Notes under the pieces: model-generated
What the model saw: only the letters and a program-made list of their open reading frames with translations
The model's database searches: none
What the model was told of the DNA's origin: nothing
Assembly (NCBI RefSeq): GCF_003217355.1
Contig: NZ_QJTK01000009.1
Coordinates: 1-64,000 of the forward strand
Length of the DNA stretch: 64,000 nucleotides
Source of the DNA: Rhodobacter viridis
GTDB taxonomy: Bacteria; Pseudomonadota; Alphaproteobacteria; Rhodobacterales; Rhodobacteraceae
Direction of reading: 5' to 3'
Shown: positions 186 to 48,480 of the stretch, one piece after another
Layout of the letters: each line of letters begins with the position of its first letter
How positions within the stretch are numbered: position 1 is the first letter of the stretch
Translations under genes and position numbers: made by a program

Positions 186-1346
186 TCAGCGCAGCGTGGC
201 TTCGGTCAGCGCCACCCAATAGGCGGCGCCGATCGGCAGGATCTCGGGGTCGAGCACATATTCGGGGTGATGCACGAATTTCGTGTCGCCATTGCCCAGG
301 AAGCAATAGGTGCCCTTGCACTTTTGCAGCATGAAGGCGAAATCCTCGGAGCCGAGATAGGTCGGGCCTTTGTCGATCACATTGTCCGTGCCAAAGGCGG
401 CGCGGGCGATGGCAGCGGCCTTGCGGGTTTCCTCGGGGTCGTTGGTCAGCACTGCCCCCGGCACGCCCTCGCGAATTTCGGCGCTGCAGCCGAAGGACTC
501 GCACTGGCGCGCCACCAGACGCCGGACATTTCCCAAAACGACGGCCCGATCCTGCGGCGTGGTGGTGCGGATCGAGAGCCGCAGCACTGCGCTTTGCGCG
601 ATGACATTGCCCGCTTGCCCCGCCTGAAACGCCCCCACCGTGACGACAGCACTATGGGAGGGCGCCACATTGCGCGCCACCACCGTCTGCAACGCCATCA
701 CCAGCGACGCCCCCGCCACGACCGGATCGATCGCCAGTTCGGGAAAGGCGCCGTGGCCGCCCTTGCCGGTGATCTCCACCTCCCAGTTGTCGACCGCAGC
801 CATCGTGTCGCCTTCGGTGAAGTAGAGCTTGCCCTTTTCGAGCCCCGGCATGTTGTGCATCCCGAAGACCGCATCGACCGGGAAGCGCTCGAACAGACCA
901 TCGGCGATCATCGCCGGGCCGCCCTGCATCGTCTCCTCGCCGGGTTGGAAGATCATCCGCACCGTGCCGTTGAAATTGCGCGTCTCGGACAGGTATTGCG
1001 CTGCGCCCAAGAGCATCGCGGTATGGCCGTCATGGCCGCACAGATGCGCCCGGCCGGGGATCTGCGATTTCCAGGGCAGGTCGTTCACCTCCTGGATCGG
1101 CAGGGCGTCGAAATCGGCGCGCAGCCCGATGGCCTTGCCGCCCTTGCCCGAGGTGATCGAGGCGACGATGCCGTGCCCGCCGACGCCGGTGACGACCTCG
1201 ACGCCGGGAAAGCTGTGCAAGGTGTCGGCGATGAAGGCGGCGGTGCGCTCTTCCTGCATCGAGAGTTCGGGGGTGCGGTGCAGATGGGCGAACCAGGTTT
1301 CCATCAAGGATTTGTCCTGTTCGAGCCGGGTGATGATGGCGTTCAT
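186..1346 (-). CDS. M20-family metallo-amidohydrolase (hippurate hydrolase/aminoacylase-like)
   Basis: 386 residues. Family members are cytoplasmic binuclear metal hydrolases that cleave N-acyl amino acids or amides. The metal-ligand motif C-G-H-D-G-H lies at residues 103-108, the catalytic E-E pair at 137-138 (PGEE) and a further ligand His at about 164 (GMHNMPG), so the active site is complete. The ATG at 1346 was chosen because AGGAG sits seven bases upstream on the minus strand; a longer open frame lacks a ribosome site. It lies 63 bases downstream of an MFS exporter gene on the same strand and is probably cotranscribed with it, under the divergent MarR regulator. The real substrate cannot be read from sequence; an export-plus-deacylation role is inference. 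Confidence 0.88.
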   Translation of the reverse strand: MNAIITRLEQDKSLMETWFAHLHRTPELSMQEERTAAFIADTLHSFPGVEVVTGVGGHGIVASITSGKGGKAIGLRADFDALPIQEVNDLPWKSQIPGRAHLCGHDGHTAMLLGAAQYLSETRNFNGTVRMIFQPGEETMQGGPAMIADGLFERFPVDAVFGMHNMPGLEKGKLYFTEGDTMAAVDNWEVEITGKGGHGAFPELAIDPVVAGASLVMALQTVVARNVAPSHSAVVTVGAFQAGQAGNVIAQSAVLRLSIRTTTPQDRAVVLGNVRRLVARQCESFGCSAEIREGVPGAVLTNDPEETRKAAAIARAAFGTDNVIDKGPTYLGSEDFAFMLQKCKGTYCFLGNGDTKFVHHPEYVLDPEILPIGAAYWVALTEATLR

Positions 1347-1409
1347 GTCACGCTCCTGTAAGGCGGTTTCGGGGTGCTCCCGCCAGCCGTCCGGCGGGGG
1401 CAAAGGCGG

Positions 1410-2870
1410 TCAGGCGGTTGCTTTCTTGCCCGCCGGGATCGTCAGCAGGATGCTGAGGATGGCGACGAGGACCAGCATCAGGTTGAACCCGAGCGCGACC
1501 AGCGCGGCTTCGCGGATGGCGACGTTGTCCTGCCGCCCGACGAAGGTGATCACGCCCTGCATCCACTGCACCGAGGCGTCATTGGCGCTGAGTGCGGTGA
1601 AGATCGCCGCCGAGATCGCCACACCGAAGGAGCCACCGAGCGACGAGGCCATCTTGTAGATGCCCGCCCCGGCCGCCGCCTGATCATCGGGCAGGTTCGA
1701 CAGCGCCGCATCGGTCGAGGGGGTGGCGTAGAAGGCAAGACCAAGGCCAAGCAGGATGTAGGAAATCACGGCGAGGATGCGGTATTGGTCGAGCATCAGG
1801 TTCGTCGGCAGCAGCAGCGCGATCGACAGGCCCGAGATCAGGCAGGCCCAGAGCATCGGCTTGCGCGAACCGAAGCGTTGCAGAAGCTTTTCGCCGACCC
1901 GGATGAAGGCGACGATGGTGATCGCATAGCCGAGCGTCAGCATGCCCGCCGCCTGCGCCGTCAGCCCGCCACCGAGTTGCAGGAGCATCATCGAGACGAT
2001 GATCATGCCCGCGATGCCATTGAGCAGGAAGTTGGAGATCGTCGCCCCGGTATAGATCCGGTTGGAAAACAGCTTGAAGTTGACGAAAGGCGCGTTCGAG
2101 CGGGTTTCCAGCAGGAAGAAGATCACGCCAAACACCACCGCGACAACAGCGAGGCCAAGCGTCAGCGGATCGGTCCAGCCGATTTTCGAGCCCTGCGTCG
2201 CGACGATCTGCAACGCGACCATGCTGATCAGGAAGGTGACCAAGCCCTTGAAGTCGAACTTGTAGCTGCCCTTGGCCTCGGCCTTGCACTCGGGGGTGCC
2301 GCGCACCATCAGCATGCCGACGAGCGAGACGACGGCCGAGATGATGAAGATCCAGCGCCAGCCGACGTTCGAGGCCATCAGCCCGCCAAAGAGCGCGGCA
2401 AAGCCTGATCCGCCCCAAGACCCCATCGACCACAGGCTGATCGCCCGCTGCCGCGCCGCGCCCTCCCAATAGGTTTTCACCAGCGCGAGGCTTGAAGACA
2501 TGATGAAGGCCGCCGACAGCCCTTGGGCGATGCGGCCGAACATCAGGAAGGTGCTGCCCGAGGCGCCCGTGGGGGCAAAACCCACGAGGAGCGAGCCGAG
2601 GATCGACAGCACGAAGCCCCACATCACCATGCGGACGCGGCCGACCCGGTCGGCGAGGCCGCCGACGACGACGATGAAGATGCCGGAAAACAGCGCCGTG
2701 ATCGACACGGCGATGTTCATCAGGCTTTGTTCGATCTGCAGATCGGCCGCCATCTGCGGCGCGATGTTGAGCGTGGTCTGGGCAAACAGCCAGAAGGCCA
2801 GAACGCCCATGATGATCCCGAACAGGAGCCTGTCGGTCCCCTGATAGGAGGATTTGGATGTGTCAGACAT
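1410..2870 (-). CDS. MFS transporter, DHA2-type (14-helix drug:H+ antiporter-like)
   Basis: 486 residues, the usual length of 14-span DHA2 exporters. MFS motif A is present as G-G-L-A-D-R-V-G-R-V-R (70-80), and the region around GRIAQGLSAAF is the conserved helix 4-5 segment of this family. Hydrophobic helices run almost the full length. The start at 2870 (MSDTSKS) is preceded by AAAGGA; the open frame extends further upstream but across the promoter. The gene is divergent from a MarR gene with a palindrome between them, the common arrangement for a substrate-induced efflux pump. The exported compound is unknown; the cotranscribed M20 hydrolase suggests an acylated amino acid or aromatic amide, which is inference. 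Confidence 0.85.
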   Translation of the reverse strand: MSDTSKSSYQGTDRLLFGIIMGVLAFWLFAQTTLNIAPQMAADLQIEQSLMNIAVSITALFSGIFIVVVGGLADRVGRVRMVMWGFVLSILGSLLVGFAPTGASGSTFLMFGRIAQGLSAAFIMSSSLALVKTYWEGAARQRAISLWSMGSWGGSGFAALFGGLMASNVGWRWIFIISAVVSLVGMLMVRGTPECKAEAKGSYKFDFKGLVTFLISMVALQIVATQGSKIGWTDPLTLGLAVVAVVFGVIFFLLETRSNAPFVNFKLFSNRIYTGATISNFLLNGIAGMIIVSMMLLQLGGGLTAQAAGMLTLGYAITIVAFIRVGEKLLQRFGSRKPMLWACLISGLSIALLLPTNLMLDQYRILAVISYILLGLGLAFYATPSTDAALSNLPDDQAAAGAGIYKMASSLGGSFGVAISAAIFTALSANDASVQWMQGVITFVGRQDNVAIREAALVALGFNLMLVLVAILSILLTIPAGKKATA

Positions 2871-2982
2871 CTCGGTGGTCCTTTGGAAAGCGCGAGGGGC
2901 GCATGAACAAGGCGAGGTCTCGCGGCAGGGGCGGGAGGAACGACTCGGGTCACCTGCTTGCCTCTGCGCGCAATATACAATA

Positions 2983-2997
2983 GTTGCTTCTTGCAAC
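2983..2997. promoter_or_regulatory. Palindrome in the MFS/MarR divergent promoter, likely MarR operator
   Basis: GTTGC-TTCTT-GCAAC is a perfect inverted repeat in an AT-richer patch between the divergent start codons (2870 and 3121). MarR dimers bind palindromes of this size and commonly autoregulate; the assignment to this MarR protein is inference from position. Confidence 0.6.
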
Positions 2998-3120
2998 AAG
3001 TGAAAAATGCAAGCGAAACTCGAGACCGTTGACCCGGGCAATGGTTGCAATTTCCGCCCTCCTCGCCCACCTTGAGGCCATCGGCACGACCTGCCCGGCG
3101 CCGCAGAAGGATCACGGACC

Positions 3121-32069: not shown

Positions 32070-32120
32070 GGGCAGGGCTTATACCGGCAAGCGCGCAAGG
32101 CGGGAAGGAGAGAAACGGAA

Positions 32121-32140
32121 AGGGCGCCCGCAGGCGCCCT
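32121..32140 (-). terminator. Terminator of gcrA
   Basis: AGGGCGCC-CGCA-GGCGCCCT; read on the minus strand TTTCCGTTT follows. It separates gcrA from rimO. Confidence 0.8.
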
Positions 32141-32155
32141 GTTCTTTGTGCGATC

Positions 32156-32231
32156 CGTCGCCTTACCGCCGACGATCCCGGCACCGTTGCGTCTTGCCGG
32201 GCCGCGTCGCCTTACCGCCGACGATCCCGGC
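32156..32231. repeat. 27-base direct repeat duplicating the gcrA 3' end
   Basis: Two identical 27-base copies at 32156-32182 and 32205-32231, period 49. The right copy contains the last codons and stop of gcrA; the left copy is noncoding, between gcrA and its terminator. Confidence 0.85.
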
Positions 32232-38619: not shown

Positions 38620-41040
38620 TCACTTCCGCTGCACACCGCCGGTAGCCTTGGTGACCTTTTCCACGACCTTGGCCGAGACCGCTTCGATCTCGGCATCGGT
38701 CAGGGTCTTGTCGCGCGGCTGCAGCCGGACCGACAGCGCGATCGACTTCTTGCCCGCGCCCATCTGTTCCTCGGCCTTGGCGCCGGTGAACTGGTCGAAG
38801 ACCGAGACCTGATCAATGAGCACCTTGTCGGCCCCGTAAGCCGCGTTCACCGCGGTCAGCGCCTCGACACCCGCATCGACGACGAAGGCGAAATCGCGCT
38901 CGACCGCGTGCAGATCCGAGAGCGCCAGCGCGGGCCGGGTCGGCGTTTTCGCTTTCGGGAAGGGCACTGCCTCGATCCAGACGGTGAAGGCGACCGCCGG
39001 CCCTTTCACGCCCATTTCGCGCAGCACTTTCGGATGCACCTCGCCAAAGCTCGCCAGCGCATTCGGCCCAAGCGCGATGGTGCCCGCGCGGCCCGGATGG
39101 AACCAGCCCGCCACCTTGCGGTTGACCTGCACCCGCGCGGGCGCGCCGATCGCGGCCAGCACCGCCTCGACATCGGCCTTGGCGTCGTAAAGATCGACCG
39201 GACGGCGCGAGGCCCAGGGGTCACGCGGCGCCGAAGCGCCCACCAGAAGCCCCGCCGCCTGCAACGCCTGATCGCCCGGTTCGCCACCGCTGAAGGCGGG
39301 GCCCACCTCGAAGAGCGCCAGATCGGCAAAGCCGCGCGACTGGTTGCGCGCCGCCGCCTGCAAGAGACCCGGCAGCAGGTCCGGGCGCAGGTGGGTCATC
39401 TCGGACGAGATCGGGTTTTCAATCCGCGTCGCATCCGCGCCACCGCCGAACAGCACCGCCGATTTCGCGTCGATGAAGCTGTAGGTCACGCATTCATTGT
39501 AGCCCAAGGCCGCAATCGTGCGCCGCGCGGTGCGTTCGCGGGTCTGGATCGGCGTCAGCACCGGACCGGGAACGCCGGTGGTTTCGCGCGCCATCGGACG
39601 GCCCACCAGCTTCGTGAGGGACGCAATCCGCGCCACTTCCTCGACCAGATCCGCCTCGCCCAACACATCGGGCCGCCACGAGGGCGCGGTGGCCATGTCG
39701 CCTTCAAAGGTGAAGCCAAGCGCCGTCAGCGTCGCGCGCTGCGTCGCCTCGGGAATGTCCATGCCGACAAGGCTGATGACGCGGGCCGGGTCGAGCTTGT
39801 AGGCGCGCTTGGTGTTCGGCACGGCGCCGTCCATCACCACGCTTGAGGCCTCGCCGCCGCACAGGTCGAGCACCATTTGCGTCGCCAGTTCCAGCCCCGG
39901 CAGGGTGAATTCCGGGTCCACGCCGCGCTCGAACCGATAGCGCGCGTCCGAGTTGATCTTCAGCGCGCGGCCGGTCGTGGCAATGGTGATCGGGTCCCAA
40001 TAGGCGCTTTCAAGGAAGACATCGGTGGTCTCCTCGGTGCAGCCCGAAAGCTCGCCGCCCATGATCCCGGCAAGGCTTTCCGGTTCCTTGTCGTCGCAAA
40101 TCACCATCTGACCGGGGCGCAGGGTGTAGGTCTTGCCATCGAGCGCCAGCAGCTCCTCGCCGCCCTTGGCAGGGACTATCCGCAGGTTCCCCGCCACCTT
40201 CGCCGCGTCGAACACGTGCAGCGGGCGGTTCAGGTCATAGGTGAAGAAGTTGGTGATATCGACCAGCGCCGAGATCGGGCGCAGCCCGATCGCCCGCAGC
40301 CGCGATTGCAGCCAGTCGGGGCTAGGCCCGTTTTTCACGCCGCGGATCAGACGGCCTGCAAAAAGCGGGCAGCCCTTTTCCTTGAGGCCCGGGTCGATTT
40401 CCACCTTGATCGGGCTTTCGAACCCGCCCGGCACGGCCTCGATTTCGAGCGGCTTGAGCCGCCCAAGACCGCGCGCCGCCAGATCGCGGGCGACGCCGCG
40501 CACGCCCAGCGCATCGGGGCGGTTCGGGGTGATCTTGATGTGGATCATCGGATCGACCGCCTCGGGGCGGTTTTCCGCCAGCCAGTCGATGAACTTGCAG
40601 CCGACCTCGGAATTCAGGCTGTCCTCGGGCAGCTCGATGATGCCGTTATGCTCGTCGGACAGTTCGAGTTCCCGTTCCGAGCACATCATGCCGTGGCTTT
40701 CGACGCCGCGGATCTTGCCGATGCCCAAAGTGGTGTCGATGCCCGGCACGTAATCGCCCGGTTTCGCCAGCACGACGGTGATCCCCGCCCGCGCATTCGG
40801 CGCGCCGCAGACGATGACCTTTTCGCCCTCGTCGGTCAGCACACGGCAGACCCGCAGCTTGTCGGCATCGGGGTGCTTTTCGGCGTGCAGCACCTTGGCG
40901 ATGGTGAAGGGGGCGAGTTTCGCGCCCGGGTTCACCACCTCCTCGACCTCAAGGCCAAGGTCGGTGAGCGCATCGGCGATCTCGGTGACCGAGGCCTCGG
41001 TTTCGAGATGGTCTTTCAGCCAGGAGAGGGTGAATTTCAT
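38620..41040 (-). CDS. pheT: Phenylalanyl-tRNA synthetase beta subunit
   Basis: 806 residues. Begins MKFTLSWLKDHLETEASVTEIADALTDLGLEVEEV in the PheT N-terminal domain, followed by the tRNA-binding OB domain (KVLHAEKHPDADKLRVC), B3/B4 editing domains and the C-terminal anticodon-binding FDX-ACB domain. It pairs with PheS to form the (alphabeta)2 enzyme. Its ribosome site (AAAAAGGTG) lies inside the last codons of the DUF6602-like gene, whose stop is four bases upstream, so pheT translation depends on the inserted gene's 3' end. A longer open frame runs backward into that gene and is not real. Confidence 0.97.
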   Translation of the reverse strand: MKFTLSWLKDHLETEASVTEIADALTDLGLEVEEVVNPGAKLAPFTIAKVLHAEKHPDADKLRVCRVLTDEGEKVIVCGAPNARAGITVVLAKPGDYVPGIDTTLGIGKIRGVESHGMMCSERELELSDEHNGIIELPEDSLNSEVGCKFIDWLAENRPEAVDPMIHIKITPNRPDALGVRGVARDLAARGLGRLKPLEIEAVPGGFESPIKVEIDPGLKEKGCPLFAGRLIRGVKNGPSPDWLQSRLRAIGLRPISALVDITNFFTYDLNRPLHVFDAAKVAGNLRIVPAKGGEELLALDGKTYTLRPGQMVICDDKEPESLAGIMGGELSGCTEETTDVFLESAYWDPITIATTGRALKINSDARYRFERGVDPEFTLPGLELATQMVLDLCGGEASSVVMDGAVPNTKRAYKLDPARVISLVGMDIPEATQRATLTALGFTFEGDMATAPSWRPDVLGEADLVEEVARIASLTKLVGRPMARETTGVPGPVLTPIQTRERTARRTIAALGYNECVTYSFIDAKSAVLFGGGADATRIENPISSEMTHLRPDLLPGLLQAAARNQSRGFADLALFEVGPAFSGGEPGDQALQAAGLLVGASAPRDPWASRRPVDLYDAKADVEAVLAAIGAPARVQVNRKVAGWFHPGRAGTIALGPNALASFGEVHPKVLREMGVKGPAVAFTVWIEAVPFPKAKTPTRPALALSDLHAVERDFAFVVDAGVEALTAVNAAYGADKVLIDQVSVFDQFTGAKAEEQMGAGKKSIALSVRLQPRDKTLTDAEIEAVSAKVVEKVTKATGGVQRK

Positions 41041-41044
41041 TTGG

Positions 41045-41815
41045 TCACACCTTTTTCCACATTTTTCCAAGGTCGGCGGCATAGCTAAAATACGGAACAG
41101 CGCCCCGCCGAGGATTTTCGCGCGCAACAAAATTGAAAGTTGAAACCCAGTAAGCAGTAAGAGCTTGGGCTGTTTCGTCACGCTCGGGCAGAAATCTTCT
41201 ACGCGATGGATGAACCAATCCTTTGCCAAGAACGTAAACCATCTCGACGCCCTCATAGTCGCCGACACTATGCTCAGCTATCTTATCGCAGACGGTAGCG
41301 GGCCAATTATCACCCCATGCGACATCGTATGCGAAGAGAGTGTGAAAATAGCGCGCGTCCCCATCGATACCCACCATTCCACTCTTAGCTTGCTGCTTTT
41401 TGAATGGACGCAAAGAGCGCAACTTCGCCGCTGCGATTTGAGACTTCTTTATCTCCTCATCGTTCAGGAGTGACTTGACTTCTATAGAGGCGAGCAAAGC
41501 TTCGGCGGGTAGTACTGCCGTTGCTCCTGAATAAAACGGGAAGTTACGAGACGAGTCATAAATCATAACGTCGAGTTGGGGGCTAGTTCTCTTACCGAGA
41601 TCTACGACTTCTCCTTTTATAGCCTTATAGACATTAGGCAATAGCCCGCCGATCAAGTTGGCGATGCTGTCCTCACGCTCATCTCCTTTTCCGCCCCGAT
41701 GCTGCAAGTTTCGAGTTTCTTCAATTCGAACCTTCAGCTTTTTGATCTCCGTTCCGAACCTATCGATAAAAATCGGGACAGCGTGACCTTTATTTAGAGG
41801 ATTCCGCTTCTTCAC
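41045..41815 (-). CDS. DUF6602-like, PD-(D/E)xK nuclease-type protein inserted between pheS and pheT
   Basis: 256 residues, starting with GTG at 41815 that overlaps the pheS stop by four bases (GTGA). The segment [12 protein letters not shown] followed by LDVMIYD and [11 protein letters not shown] resembles DUF6602: E47, D82 and E112-x-K114 are spaced like the catalytic residues of a PD-(D/E)xK restriction-type nuclease. N-terminal coiled/helical region about 15-40. The C-terminal half (about 150-256) has no obvious motif. The base composition is visibly AT-richer than pheS and pheT, with codons such as AAT, ATA and TTA rarely used elsewhere in the window, indicating acquisition. It is coupled to both neighbours, so it must be expressed with the synthetase. 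Function unknown; nuclease activity is inference. Confidence 0.8.
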
Positions 41816-42894
41816 TTACTCAACCCCCCGAACACCGTCGGCAGGTCCAGCGCGGCAAAGCCGTAGTGCTTCAGCCAGCGCAGGTCGCTTTCAAAGAACG
41901 CGCGCAGATCCGGGATGCCGTATTTCAGCATCGCGATCCGGTCGATGCCGACGCCGAAGGCAAAGCCCTGATATTCGTTCGGATCGATGCCGCCCGCCGC
42001 CAGAACCTTCGGATGCACCATGCCCGAGCCGAGGATTTCCAGCCAGGAATTGCCCTCGCCGATCTTCAGCTGGCCGCCTTCCCAGGAACAGCGGATATCC
42101 ACCTCGGCCGAGGGTTCGGTGAAGGGGAAGTGGCTGGCGCGGAAGCGCAATTCGACCGAGGGCACCTCGAAGAAGGTCTTGCAGAATTCCTCCAGCACCC
42201 ATTTCAGGTTCGCCATCGAAATGTCGCGGCCAATGGCGAGGCCCTCGACCTGATGGAACATCGGCGCGTGGGTCTGGTCCATGTCCATGCGGTAGACGCG
42301 GCCCGGCGCGATCACGCGAATGGGCGCGCCCTTGGCCTGCATGGCGCGGATCTGCACCGGCGAGGTATGGGTGCGCAGCACATGCGGCGGGCGCGGGTCG
42401 GCGGCGTCGCGGGCCATGAAGAAGGTGTCGTGTTCTTGCCGCGCGGGGTGTTCGGGCGCGATGTTGAGCGCGTCGAAGTTGTACCAGTCGGATTCGACCT
42501 GCGGCCCCTCGGCCACGGCAAAGCCCATGTCGGCGAAGATCGCGGTGACTTCGTCCATCACCTGAGAAACCGGGTGGATCGTGCCCTGACGGCGCGGACG
42601 GCCGGGCAGCGTCACATCGAGCCATTCCGAGCGCAGACGCGCATCAAGGGCGGCATCGGCCAGAGCCTCTTTCTTGGCACGCAGGGCGGCGTCGATCTCG
42701 TCCTTCAGACGGTTCAGCGCGGCGCCAGTGGTGGTGCGTTCCTCGGGCGTCATCTGACCGAGTTCGCGCATCTTCAGCGAAATCTCGCCCTTCTTGCCAA
42801 GGGCGGCCAGACGGATCTCCTCAAGGCTCGCCTCATCCGCGGCTTGCGCGATGCCTTCGAGATATTTCGCCTTGAGCACATCAAGCGTGGTCAT
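41812..42894 (-). CDS. pheS: Phenylalanyl-tRNA synthetase alpha subunit
   Basis: 360 residues, class II aminoacyl-tRNA synthetase catalytic subunit. An N-terminal coiled coil (about 1-85) is followed by the catalytic core with motif 2 ([10 protein letters not shown] region) and motif 3 ([18 protein letters not shown]). It charges tRNA-Phe together with PheT. Here pheT is displaced by a 0.77-kb insertion and the pheS stop overlaps the start of the inserted gene. Upstream 43 bases hold the hairpin at 42967-42999. Confidence 0.97.
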
Positions 42895-43018: not shown

Positions 43019-43384
43019 TTACGCAGCCACGGCGGCCTTGGCCTGAGCGACGATCGCCGCAAAGGCTTCGGGTTCGTGGATGGCGAGATCGGCCAGAACC
43101 TTGCGGTCCACTTCGATCCCGGCCAGAGCCAGACCGTTGATGAAGCGCGAGTAGGTCATTTCCAGATCGACGGCGCGGACGGCGGCGTTGATACGCTGGA
43201 TCCACAGCGCGCGGAAGTTGCGCTTGCGCTGCTGGCGGTCGCGCGTGGCGTATTGCATCGCCTTGTCGACAGCCTGGGTGGCGGTGCGGAAGTTGCGCGA
43301 ACGGGCCGAGTAGTAGCCTTTCGCCTTCTTCAGGACTTTCTTGTGCGAGGCGTGAGTGACCTTGCCGGATTTGACGCGGGACAT
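43019..43384 (-). CDS. rplT: 50S ribosomal protein L20
   Basis: 121 residues, exact L20 length: a basic N terminus ([21 protein letters not shown]), [18 protein letters not shown] and the globular C-terminal domain ([26 protein letters not shown]). It is an early assembly protein of the large subunit and, in enterics, represses its own operon. It follows rpmI by 16 bases on the same strand; infC is not in the window. Confidence 0.98.
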
Positions 43385-46416: not shown

Positions 46417-48480
46417 ATGGAAGGTCTCATTTTGATGTCGCTTTTCCCGGCCCTTCTTGTGGGACTTGCGATCCATGCCTCCAACACCAATGACGGCGGG
46501 TCAGAGGATCACGGCGACGCGATGCGCGGCACCGACGGCGCCGATACGATCACCGGAACCGACGGCGACAATTACATCGATGCGGGCTTTTCCAATGACA
46601 GCGTGGATGGCGGCGCGGGCGACGACACGTTGCGCGGCAACCTTGGCGCCGATGTCCTGATCGATTCCGAAGGCGCGAACGAACTTTACGGCGGCTATGG
46701 TTACGATCACCTGGCGGCGCTCGATGCCGATGGCGGCGATGCGGACCTTCTGAATGGCGGCGGCAACGACGACATGTTGCTTGGCGACAGTGGCGATACG
46801 CTGGTGGGGGACACCGGCACCGACACCTTTCTGGCGCAATGGACAAGCGGCAGCACAGCCCTGACGCTGAGCGACTTCGACCCGGCCGCGGGCGAGACCT
46901 TCACCATCGAGACCGACAGCGAGATCACCGACACGACCGACTTCCATCTCGAACAGGCCGATGGCGGCGTGAACCTGCTGCTGGATGGCGAGAGCGTGGC
47001 CTGGTTCGAAGGCGGCGACATGCATGCCATCGCGGCCTCGGTGACGCTTTACGGCACGAACGGCGACACCGGCATCAACCCGATCATCCCCGACGAGACG
47101 ATGACCGGCACCGCGGGCGATGACGACCTCGAGGGCTCCTCGTCTTCCGAGGTCTTCACGGGCTTGGCCGGGGATGACCGGATCGCGGGTCTGGGCGGCG
47201 ATGACACGATCTCGGGCGGCACGGGCGATGACTTGGCCTATGCGGGCGAGGGCAATGACATCGCGCAGGGCGATGACGGCGATGATTCCCTTTCCGGCGA
47301 CGATGGCGCGGATACGATCGAGGGCGATGCCGGGAATGACGTTCTCGCCGGGGGGGCGGGCCAGGACAGCCTGTCTGGTGGCGAGGGCAATGACAGCCTT
47401 GACGGCAATCCCGGGGTCGACACCGGCGATGCGGACACGCTCGACGGTGGCGCGGGCGATGACACGATCGAGGCCGCTTCGGGCGATCGGGTCACCGGCG
47501 GCGCGGGCGATGACAGCTATCAGATCACCTGGGCCCCGGGCGATGATGCGGTGACCGTCACCGATTACGGCAACACCACGGGCGCCGATGATGGCGCGAC
47601 CGAATCCGTCGTGATCGTCGATGACACCTACACCGCGGACATGGAATTCCGGCTCGACACCGTCGAGGGCGGCGTGATCGCGATCGTCGGAAGCGACACC
47701 GTGGCACTGTTCGAAGGCGCCGACATCGCCGAGCTGCAGGCGAACCTGACGCTTCTGGGGGCGGACGGCACCAGCTACAGCCTCGGTCAGGACATTGCGG
47801 GCACCGATGCCGACGACAATCTGGCGGGCACCGCGGGCGATGACTCCATCAGCGCCCGTCTGGGCGACGACACGATCGATGCCGGAAGCGGTGACGATCA
47901 GGTCACGGGCGGCTATGGCGCCGACACGATGGCAGGCGGCGCGGGCGATGACACGCTCGACGGCGGCGCGCAGAACGACACGATCGACGGCGGCACCGGC
48001 TCGGATGAAGCGCTTGGTCAGGATGGCAACGACGTGCTGCGCGATACCGCGGGCCTTGACACGCTTCTGGGCGGCAACGGCAATGACGAGCTTTACGCCA
48101 ATGACGGTCTGTCCGCGCAGATGCAGGGCCGTGCCTCTGACAGTCTCGATGGCGGGGCTGGCAACGATACGCTGTTTGGGGATTTCAGCGACACGCTGAC
48201 GGGCGGCGCGGGGTCGGATGAATTTGCGACGCAGGTCCTCGTGGATCCGGACACCGCAGACACCACCTACAGTCAGGACGTGGTCGTGACCGATTTCGAC
48301 GCCGCAACCGACACGCTGCGGCTCGACGAGGTGCCCGCCGATGCGGTGATCACCATCGTCGACTCGAGCGGCGGGGCCGCGGTGCAGGTGAATGGTGACA
48401 CACTGCTGATCCTGCAGGGCGTTTCGGCGAATGACGTCACCCTCGACATGATCACGGTCAATTACGCGACGGCCGCCTGA
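46417..48480 (+). CDS. Membrane-anchored RTX (hemolysin-type calcium-binding) protein
   Basis: 687 residues. A single N-terminal hydrophobic helix (about 2-21) is followed by three rounds of an acidic GGxGxDx(L/I) RTX block plus a spacer module. RTX blocks lie at about 37-136, 229-366 and 461-600; the spacers at 137-215, 367-450 and 602-684 share a pattern of (T)DF-P..(E)T-T-I..., DGGV, then an FEG or LQG turn. The composition is extremely Asp/Gly-rich, so it should fold on binding many Ca2+ ions. There is no classical C-terminal T1SS signal or enzymatic domain; the last element is a spacer. An anchored, surface or periplasmic calcium-binding/adhesive role is inference. AGGAG precedes the ATG and a strong terminator follows. 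Confidence 0.92.
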   Translation: MEGLILMSLFPALLVGLAIHASNTNDGGSEDHGDAMRGTDGADTITGTDGDNYIDAGFSNDSVDGGAGDDTLRGNLGADVLIDSEGANELYGGYGYDHLAALDADGGDADLLNGGGNDDMLLGDSGDTLVGDTGTDTFLAQWTSGSTALTLSDFDPAAGETFTIETDSEITDTTDFHLEQADGGVNLLLDGESVAWFEGGDMHAIAASVTLYGTNGDTGINPIIPDETMTGTAGDDDLEGSSSSEVFTGLAGDDRIAGLGGDDTISGGTGDDLAYAGEGNDIAQGDDGDDSLSGDDGADTIEGDAGNDVLAGGAGQDSLSGGEGNDSLDGNPGVDTGDADTLDGGAGDDTIEAASGDRVTGGAGDDSYQITWAPGDDAVTVTDYGNTTGADDGATESVVIVDDTYTADMEFRLDTVEGGVIAIVGSDTVALFEGADIAELQANLTLLGADGTSYSLGQDIAGTDADDNLAGTAGDDSISARLGDDTIDAGSGDDQVTGGYGADTMAGGAGDDTLDGGAQNDTIDGGTGSDEALGQDGNDVLRDTAGLDTLLGGNGNDELYANDGLSAQMQGRASDSLDGGAGNDTLFGDFSDTLTGGAGSDEFATQVLVDPDTADTTYSQDVVVTDFDAATDTLRLDEVPADAVITIVDSSGGAAVQVNGDTLLILQGVSANDVTLDMITVNYATAA

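Follow-up and report, generated by a model that had tools for sequence, protein, structure and literature searches.

A polymorphic gene slot at the pheS-pheT junction of Rhodobacteraceae, with a NucC-related cargo gene in Rhodobacter viridis

The junction between pheS and pheT in Rhodobacteraceae appears to be a polymorphic gene slot, a finding worth following, and in Rhodobacter viridis it holds a gene for a nuclease-like protein. In Rhodobacter and its nearest genera the slot usually contains a single ORF, which starts at the pheS stop and in most cases reaches the pheT start or comes within a few nucleotides of it; given this layout, translation of pheS, cargo and pheT would be coupled throughout, with no promoter for the cargo. 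Unrelated cargos and a closed (empty) allele would swap by homologous recombination between the conserved flanking sequences of pheS and pheT, as suggested by exact homology boundaries, a mismatch between cargo and tree, and junction haplotypes, and a cassette together with both flanks could be carried by particles of the RcGTA type. Taken whole, that is a polymorphic slot, a coupled cargo, exchange by flank recombination that gene transfer agents could serve, and a NucC-related cargo with an intact catalytic set, this explanation is given a probability of about 0.6. No paper on a pheS-pheT slot or insertion was among the matches listed in the literature search.

Placement of the cargo gene and fit of the slot

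Within the window, the 64,000-nucleotide stretch of R. viridis DNA that was analysed, the cargo gene occupies 41045..41815 on the minus strand and encodes a DUF6602, NucC-related protein of 256 aa from a GTG start. It lies exactly between pheS (phenylalanyl-tRNA synthetase alpha, 41812..42894, minus strand) and pheT (the beta gene, 38620..41040, minus strand, ATG at 41040), with rplT upstream of pheS (43019..43384, minus strand). The last 30 nt of pheS (41812-41841, minus strand) are of the "open" junction allele and end GGG GGG TTG AGT AAG TGA; in the GTGA at 41812..41815 (minus strand) the start codon of the cargo overlaps the pheS stop codon, TG being common to both. The pheT ATG starts 4 nt past the end of the cargo ORF and so the pheT ribosome site would fall in the last cargo codons: the presumed site is formed by the cargo 3' end and the 4-nt spacer (41041..41060, minus strand, 5' of the pheT ATG), which has AAAAAGGTGTGACCAA. 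GC content is 0.49 in the cargo stretch against 0.64 in the 300-nt flanks. The first-pass annotation had described a 256-residue ORF exactly between the two genes, its GTG overlapping the pheS stop, and an AT-richer, foreign composition, and all of this is borne out.

The same annotation held that the pheS-pheT operon cannot be made without the gene, which therefore could not be lost. This is contradicted by closed junctions, with pheT overlapping pheS, in 2/18 Rhodobacter genomes and three other family members, and by unrelated DNA at the same bases in three close relatives; the closed Rhodobacter genomes mean that the cargo gene is not locked into the operon. Nor do all relatives have the gene here with ordinary composition: a match was found in 3/195 genomes including R. 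viridis, the other two being weak (30% and 22% identity) and located elsewhere. The recurring feature is the pheS-pheT site and not the DUF6602 gene.

How exactly the slot is bounded can be seen from the three close genomes (two of them titled R. capsulatus), which are homologous to the window as far as 41811-41812 and again from 41040-41041, and have unrelated DNA in the interval. The genus sample comprised 18 genomes, including Rhodobacter capsulatus DSM 1710 and SP108, R. aestuarii and R. maris, with one genome per species in the set, and 16 of the 18 have a filled slot. Within each filled slot the first ORF starts at −1 to +5 nt relative to the end of pheS, and in 13 the last ORF (chosen automatically) ends 15 nt or less from the pheT start, the exceptions being genomes G002, G009 and G012. 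GC is lower in each of the 16 slots than in its flanks (mean 0.510 vs 0.637, Wilcoxon p 3e-5), and every one has a pheS-coupled ORF of at least 80 aa where 0.18 such slots would be expected from mononucleotide-shuffled interiors; in other members of the family such an ORF is present in 19 of 60 open slots, against 2.35 expected.

The slot is one variable place among others. Fetched stretches of G009 and G011 are collinear with the window over 32.4 and 32.8 kb (about half of it), and discontinuities above 150 nt there number four in G009 and three in G011, with the slot included in both cases; with two or three others in the collinear half, the slot is not the sole variable place in the window. 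At about 32072-32209 of the window, G009 and G011 have about 1.9 kb extra that the window lacks. The rplT-pheS gap, used as an internal control, is 126-160 nt in 11/12 named genus genomes and 1309 nt in one. The same gap exceeds 400 nt, reaching 3.8 kb, in 27/55 loci of Paracoccus and others (L109-L174), and so there may be a second variable spot just upstream of pheS in Paracoccus and other genera. Also near the operon is a 687-aa ORF (46417-48480, plus strand) with many GGxGxD-type repeats, RTX-like by eye.

Beyond the genus, the junction exceeds 200 nt in 76 of the 89 Rhodobacteraceae junctions read. In 91 family genomes the two genes share a contig and a strand; the gap between them is at most 60 nt in 7, 60-200 in 6, 200-3000 in 75 and above that in 3 (median 755). 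These 91 derive from 115 family genomes with a pheS match, of which 113 were used (G085, at a contig end, and G108, split, were left out) and 22 then dropped for genes on different contigs or strands or for having no pheT; G096 and G117, with gaps of 13.7 and 389 kb, count among the 91 and are absent from the 89. Named genomes gave a gap above 200 nt in 56 of 62 measurable cases (62 of the 80 named loci gave a pheS-pheT gap; 15 duplicates were removed and more may remain). Outside the family but within the class, the median gap is 2 nt and 24/27 genomes stay at or below 60 nt, the 27 being all genomes among the matches listed for both pheS and pheT. The contrast between these mostly short gaps and the open ones of the family suggests that the class was ancestrally closed at this junction and that the slot opened later, in the family.

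Slot contents, turnover and junction alleles

Among the 16 filled genus slots there are about eight cargo families without detected similarity to one another. Their first genes comprise five DUF2513-like, four TM-coil, a weakly related pair in G002 and G006 (27% identity), one each of PycTM-like, PemK-like and NucC-related, and two orphan membrane proteins. When 139 slots, closed ones counted, were scanned with iterated profiles, they gave 12 DUF2513-like, 15 TM-coil, 14 YrhK, 7 PycTM-like and 2 PemK genes. Some of these labels are soft: the Pfam cut-off for DUF2513, a family on which the literature search found no paper, is passed by the G004 protein only, those of G008 and G001 falling below it and those of G003 and G017 giving no match; G013 and G014 were assigned to TM-coil by iteration only; and the PycTM label comes from weak PADLOC matches in two members (1e-4 and 8e-4), with none in three others scanned. 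Searches of 195 genomes, with slot positions checked by script, placed all six matches of a PycTM-like query after pheS (in G069 pheT lies elsewhere), 8 of the 15 DUF2513 matches at the slot, and the best four of the nine matches of a TM-coil query likewise. The cargo of G009 had no relative in the other 194 genomes.

The slot as such cannot be called a defence locus, since some slots hold ordinary enzymes (GATase, cytochrome bd, ASCH, YrhK); PADLOC matched at most 6 of 130 slot ORFs, which had been picked from 556 by length, strand and similarity. Two sister slots (L005 and L020, of G002 and G017) have a common YrhK gene beside pheT (93 aa, 96% identity) and different genes beside pheS, so that exchange may sometimes stop inside the slot.

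Cargo seems to change without regard to the pheS-pheT tree. On the tree of 25 genomes, in which some inner nodes have low support, 16 changes are needed to place the 11 slot states (eight genus cargo labels, one other orphan, closed and short), where shuffled labels need a mean of 16.9 and 564 of 2000 shuffles are as low. Genomes G010 and G016, about 2.6% apart by branch length, have unrelated cargos, and of the sisters G006 and G007 the first is filled and the second closed, both splits having a support of 100.

This last pair also localises the change. The bodies of the G006 and G007 genes are 3.9% different, and the last 15 nt of pheS differ at 8 positions, the highest of 1170 windows; the last 60 nt of pheS differ at 14 and the first 120 nt of pheT at none. 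Closed G007 and closed G015 show one difference in the last 30 nt of pheS though they are 15.5% apart. Over these 30 nt filled pairs differ by a mean of 1.40 (n=120) and closed-filled pairs by 9.44 (n=32), and on these figures, with the single difference between the two closed genomes, the junction behaves as two alleles moving as a block. So sharp a difference between closed and filled ends of pheS points, at the sequence level, to allelic exchange through the pheS and pheT flanks.

Codon choice adds detail to these alleles. The serine codon TCC is found in the last pheS codons of 5/5 overlapping closed family junctions and in 0/107 slots above 60 nt with a readable motif. As a mark of any closed junction TCC was rejected: two near-closed junctions (13 and 15 nt) have AGC and outside the family, by eye, 1/20 closed junctions has TCC, so that TCC is a family allele and not a rule of closure. 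Filled genus junctions favour the rare TTG (5.3% of Leu) and AGT (1.6% of Ser) at the pheS end. This conserved 30-nt left edge with its rare codons, and the base-exact boundaries, would also suit the opening of the slot by a particular mobile element that brings its own recombinase and att site; yet no integrase or transposase is found among 25 of the 29 Pfam families matched, as listed, for the 130 selected slot ORFs, and no common right-hand repeat is seen by eye in the junction listing, and such an element is judged very improbable.

Synonymous variation near the slot is to be read with some care. The first 10 codons of pheT show none in the 16 filled genus genomes, the lowest of 1156 windows, and the last 10 codons of pheS rank 48th for low synonymous variation; translation-initiation constraint, and not recombination, may be behind part of this low variation at the slot edges. 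In a close quartet, synonymous divergence is lower near the slot at p < 0.05 in 4/6 pairs, the pairs not being independent and the other two not reaching this, one of them reversed.

The turnover could be viewed in a plainer way, with the junction as an insertion-tolerant gap in which AT-rich foreign ORFs drift and are kept only since pheT needs an upstream ribosome site, the cargo itself having no selected role. It would account for cargo that is AT-rich and sometimes, as in G009, an orphan, for turnover nearly as frequent as that of shuffled labels, and for the mixed genes of wider-family slots. It sits poorly with the intact coupled ORFs in all 16 filled genus slots, with the recurrence of three families at the slot across genera, and with a catalytic set that is invariant in eight nuclease homologues, and on balance it seems unlikely. 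A slot exchanged through its flanks and carrying selected cargo is the reading preferred here.

The nuclease-like protein of R. viridis

The cargo protein of R. viridis matches DUF6602 (PF20247) in Pfam at E 8e-22 (77.6 bits, cut-off 27) and the PADLOC profiles PD_DExK at 5.9e-27 and NucC at 1e-14; a PHROG of unknown function matches at 8.7e-7 and no NCBIfam model matches at E up to 1. With this protein alone as query, NucC was the only solved structure found at E up to 1, the best match being 2.2e-10 (6uxf). A profile of four members without the NucC-like ones matches the solved NucC 7zgv at 1.3e-22, its three further weak matches (0.0013 to 0.97) being unrelated chains. The profile of all eight homologues reaches 5.2e-88 against NucC, an inflated value which is not independent because its member L176 looks almost identical to the solved 6q1h. 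A single-sequence structure model of the protein has a pLDDT of 31. Eleven residues are invariant in the eight aligned homologues (G44, E48, P60, S78, Q80, D82, E105, E112, K114, G199 and Y245), and E48, D82, E112 and K114 align with E39, D73, E104 and K106 of the NucC-like L176. By sequence, then, the relation of the DUF6602 cargo protein to the NucC nuclease is confirmed. The first-pass annotation's reading of a nuclease family thereby finds support in the DUF6602, PD_DExK and NucC matches and in the invariant catalytic set, and of its residue pattern E47/D82/E112-x-K114 the last three stand, the first acidic residue being E48 and not E47.

The closest homologue found (48% identity over 99% of the query) is encoded on the Paracoccus marcusii plasmid pCP157_14, and that this nearest relative sits on an 8.1-kb mobilizable plasmid suggests a mobile origin for the DUF6602 cargo. 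Homologues occur in 89/72,556 plasmid records and in 2/50,697 phage records, the latter partial and at 27% identity, and a single-protein scan of viral contigs gave none. The DUF6602 family model matches 4/289 genomes of the class sample, R. viridis included, and no paper on DUF6602 was found in the literature search. On an Aliarcobacter plasmid (L180) AAA ATPase, WYL-domain and hypothetical genes precede a DUF6602 gene, all in the same orientation, possibly a multi-gene system.

How such a nuclease would be triggered is a separate matter. In E. coli NucC, R53, Y81 and T226 are the residues which we take to be the cyclic triadenylate pocket, no NucC paper being among the matches listed in the literature search for these positions. 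In the alignment with the cargo protein, R53 corresponds to V62, Y81 to a gap and T226 to P235, where the alignment is poor; the NucC-like L175, L176 and L002 retain the R and Y, and the rows nearest the cargo protein do not. Searches of the R. viridis genome (a draft of 55 contigs) for a SMODS cyclase and for a type III RAMP gene gave none, with controls positive, and that for PF21654 (DncV-like) matched nothing anywhere, controls included, and hence has no weight. From the differing pocket residues and the lack of a SMODS or type III RAMP match, the cargo protein is probably not a cyclic-triadenylate-gated NucC. Its profile and PADLOC matches to NucC might be read as those of an ordinary NucC effector, fed with cyclic triadenylate by a CBASS or a type III CRISPR system elsewhere in the genome; given the empty genome searches with positive controls, and V, gap and P at positions where L175 and L002 keep R and Y, this is quite improbable. 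The L002 protein itself comes from the closed-slot genome G007, where its gene lies elsewhere (G007:C57) and both of these pocket residues are kept.

The R. viridis cargo would instead most likely be a DNA-cutting effector against phage or other mobile DNA that responds to a trigger other than cyclic triadenylate. A defence role is plausible from the NucC homology and is held tentatively, at a little under even odds. No link of the cargo gene with tRNA surveillance, a role also considered in the first-pass annotation, was found.

Vehicle of exchange and comparison with known systems

Gene transfer agents are a plausible vehicle for the supposed exchange. RcGTA is reported in PMC9690577 to carry random host DNA fragments of ~4.5 kb, which are integrated by allelic replacement. 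The GTA marker PF13547 is found in 106/120 family genomes, including 18/18 of the genus, and in 8/75 others. Within the family it is absent from 3/7 closed versus 4/76 open genomes (p 0.011), and beyond the family 2/2 open versus 3/24 closed ones have it (p 0.031); both tests ignore phylogeny and the GTA-slot association is for that reason treated as a lead. Having a GTA does not settle whether the slot is open, for three closed genomes (G007, G015 and G041) are GTA-positive too.

A bolder version of the argument would make of the junction a dedicated polymorphic effector locus in the PheRS operon of Rhodobacteraceae, with NucC-related, PycTM-like, DUF2513, TM-coil and PemK-like cargos, several mainly slot-bound, made in step with PheRS and moved between species by GTA-borne allelic exchange, so that each lineage holds a one-gene immune or growth-arrest effector needing neither cyclase nor promoter. 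This is rather doubtful as it stands. If true, a translationally coupled slot in an essential operon would be a plug-in site for single effector genes and a compact source of candidate effector families, several without any Pfam match. A family best known for gene transfer agents would also possess a natural, scorable target of allelic exchange, and with it a clear-cut way of asking whether useful genes are moved by transfer agents in nature.

Chromosomal turnover hotspots are known that have core genes as flanks and exchange their contents by flanking homologous recombination. The slot resembles them in that differing accessory DNA lies between the same core genes in relatives with no recombinase seen, and departs from them in that in the genus it usually holds one gene, inside an essential operon, with its start fused to pheS and its end near pheT, and in that some of its cargo families are found only or mainly at the pheS-pheT site. 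With NucC, the DNA endonuclease of CBASS and type III CRISPR systems (PDB 6p7o, 6q1h, 6uxf, 7zgv), the R. viridis protein has sequence kinship and the E48, D82, E112-x-K114 set in common, but it is only 19-20% identical to the NucC-like L175 and L176, is without the triadenylate-pocket residues and a detected cyclase, and is encoded by a lone gene in a housekeeping operon. The DUF6602 protein of P. marcusii pCP157_14 is a full-length homologue, but its gene lies outside pheS-pheT with neighbours of its own, on a plasmid that has a MobV relaxase and a ParD/ParE-type pair. RcGTA of the Rhodobacterales, finally, compares by its load, which at the reported ~4.5 kb accommodates a cassette of 0.4-1.7 kb and two flanks; it is not specific for the pheS-pheT locus, and its role at the slot is a presumed one.
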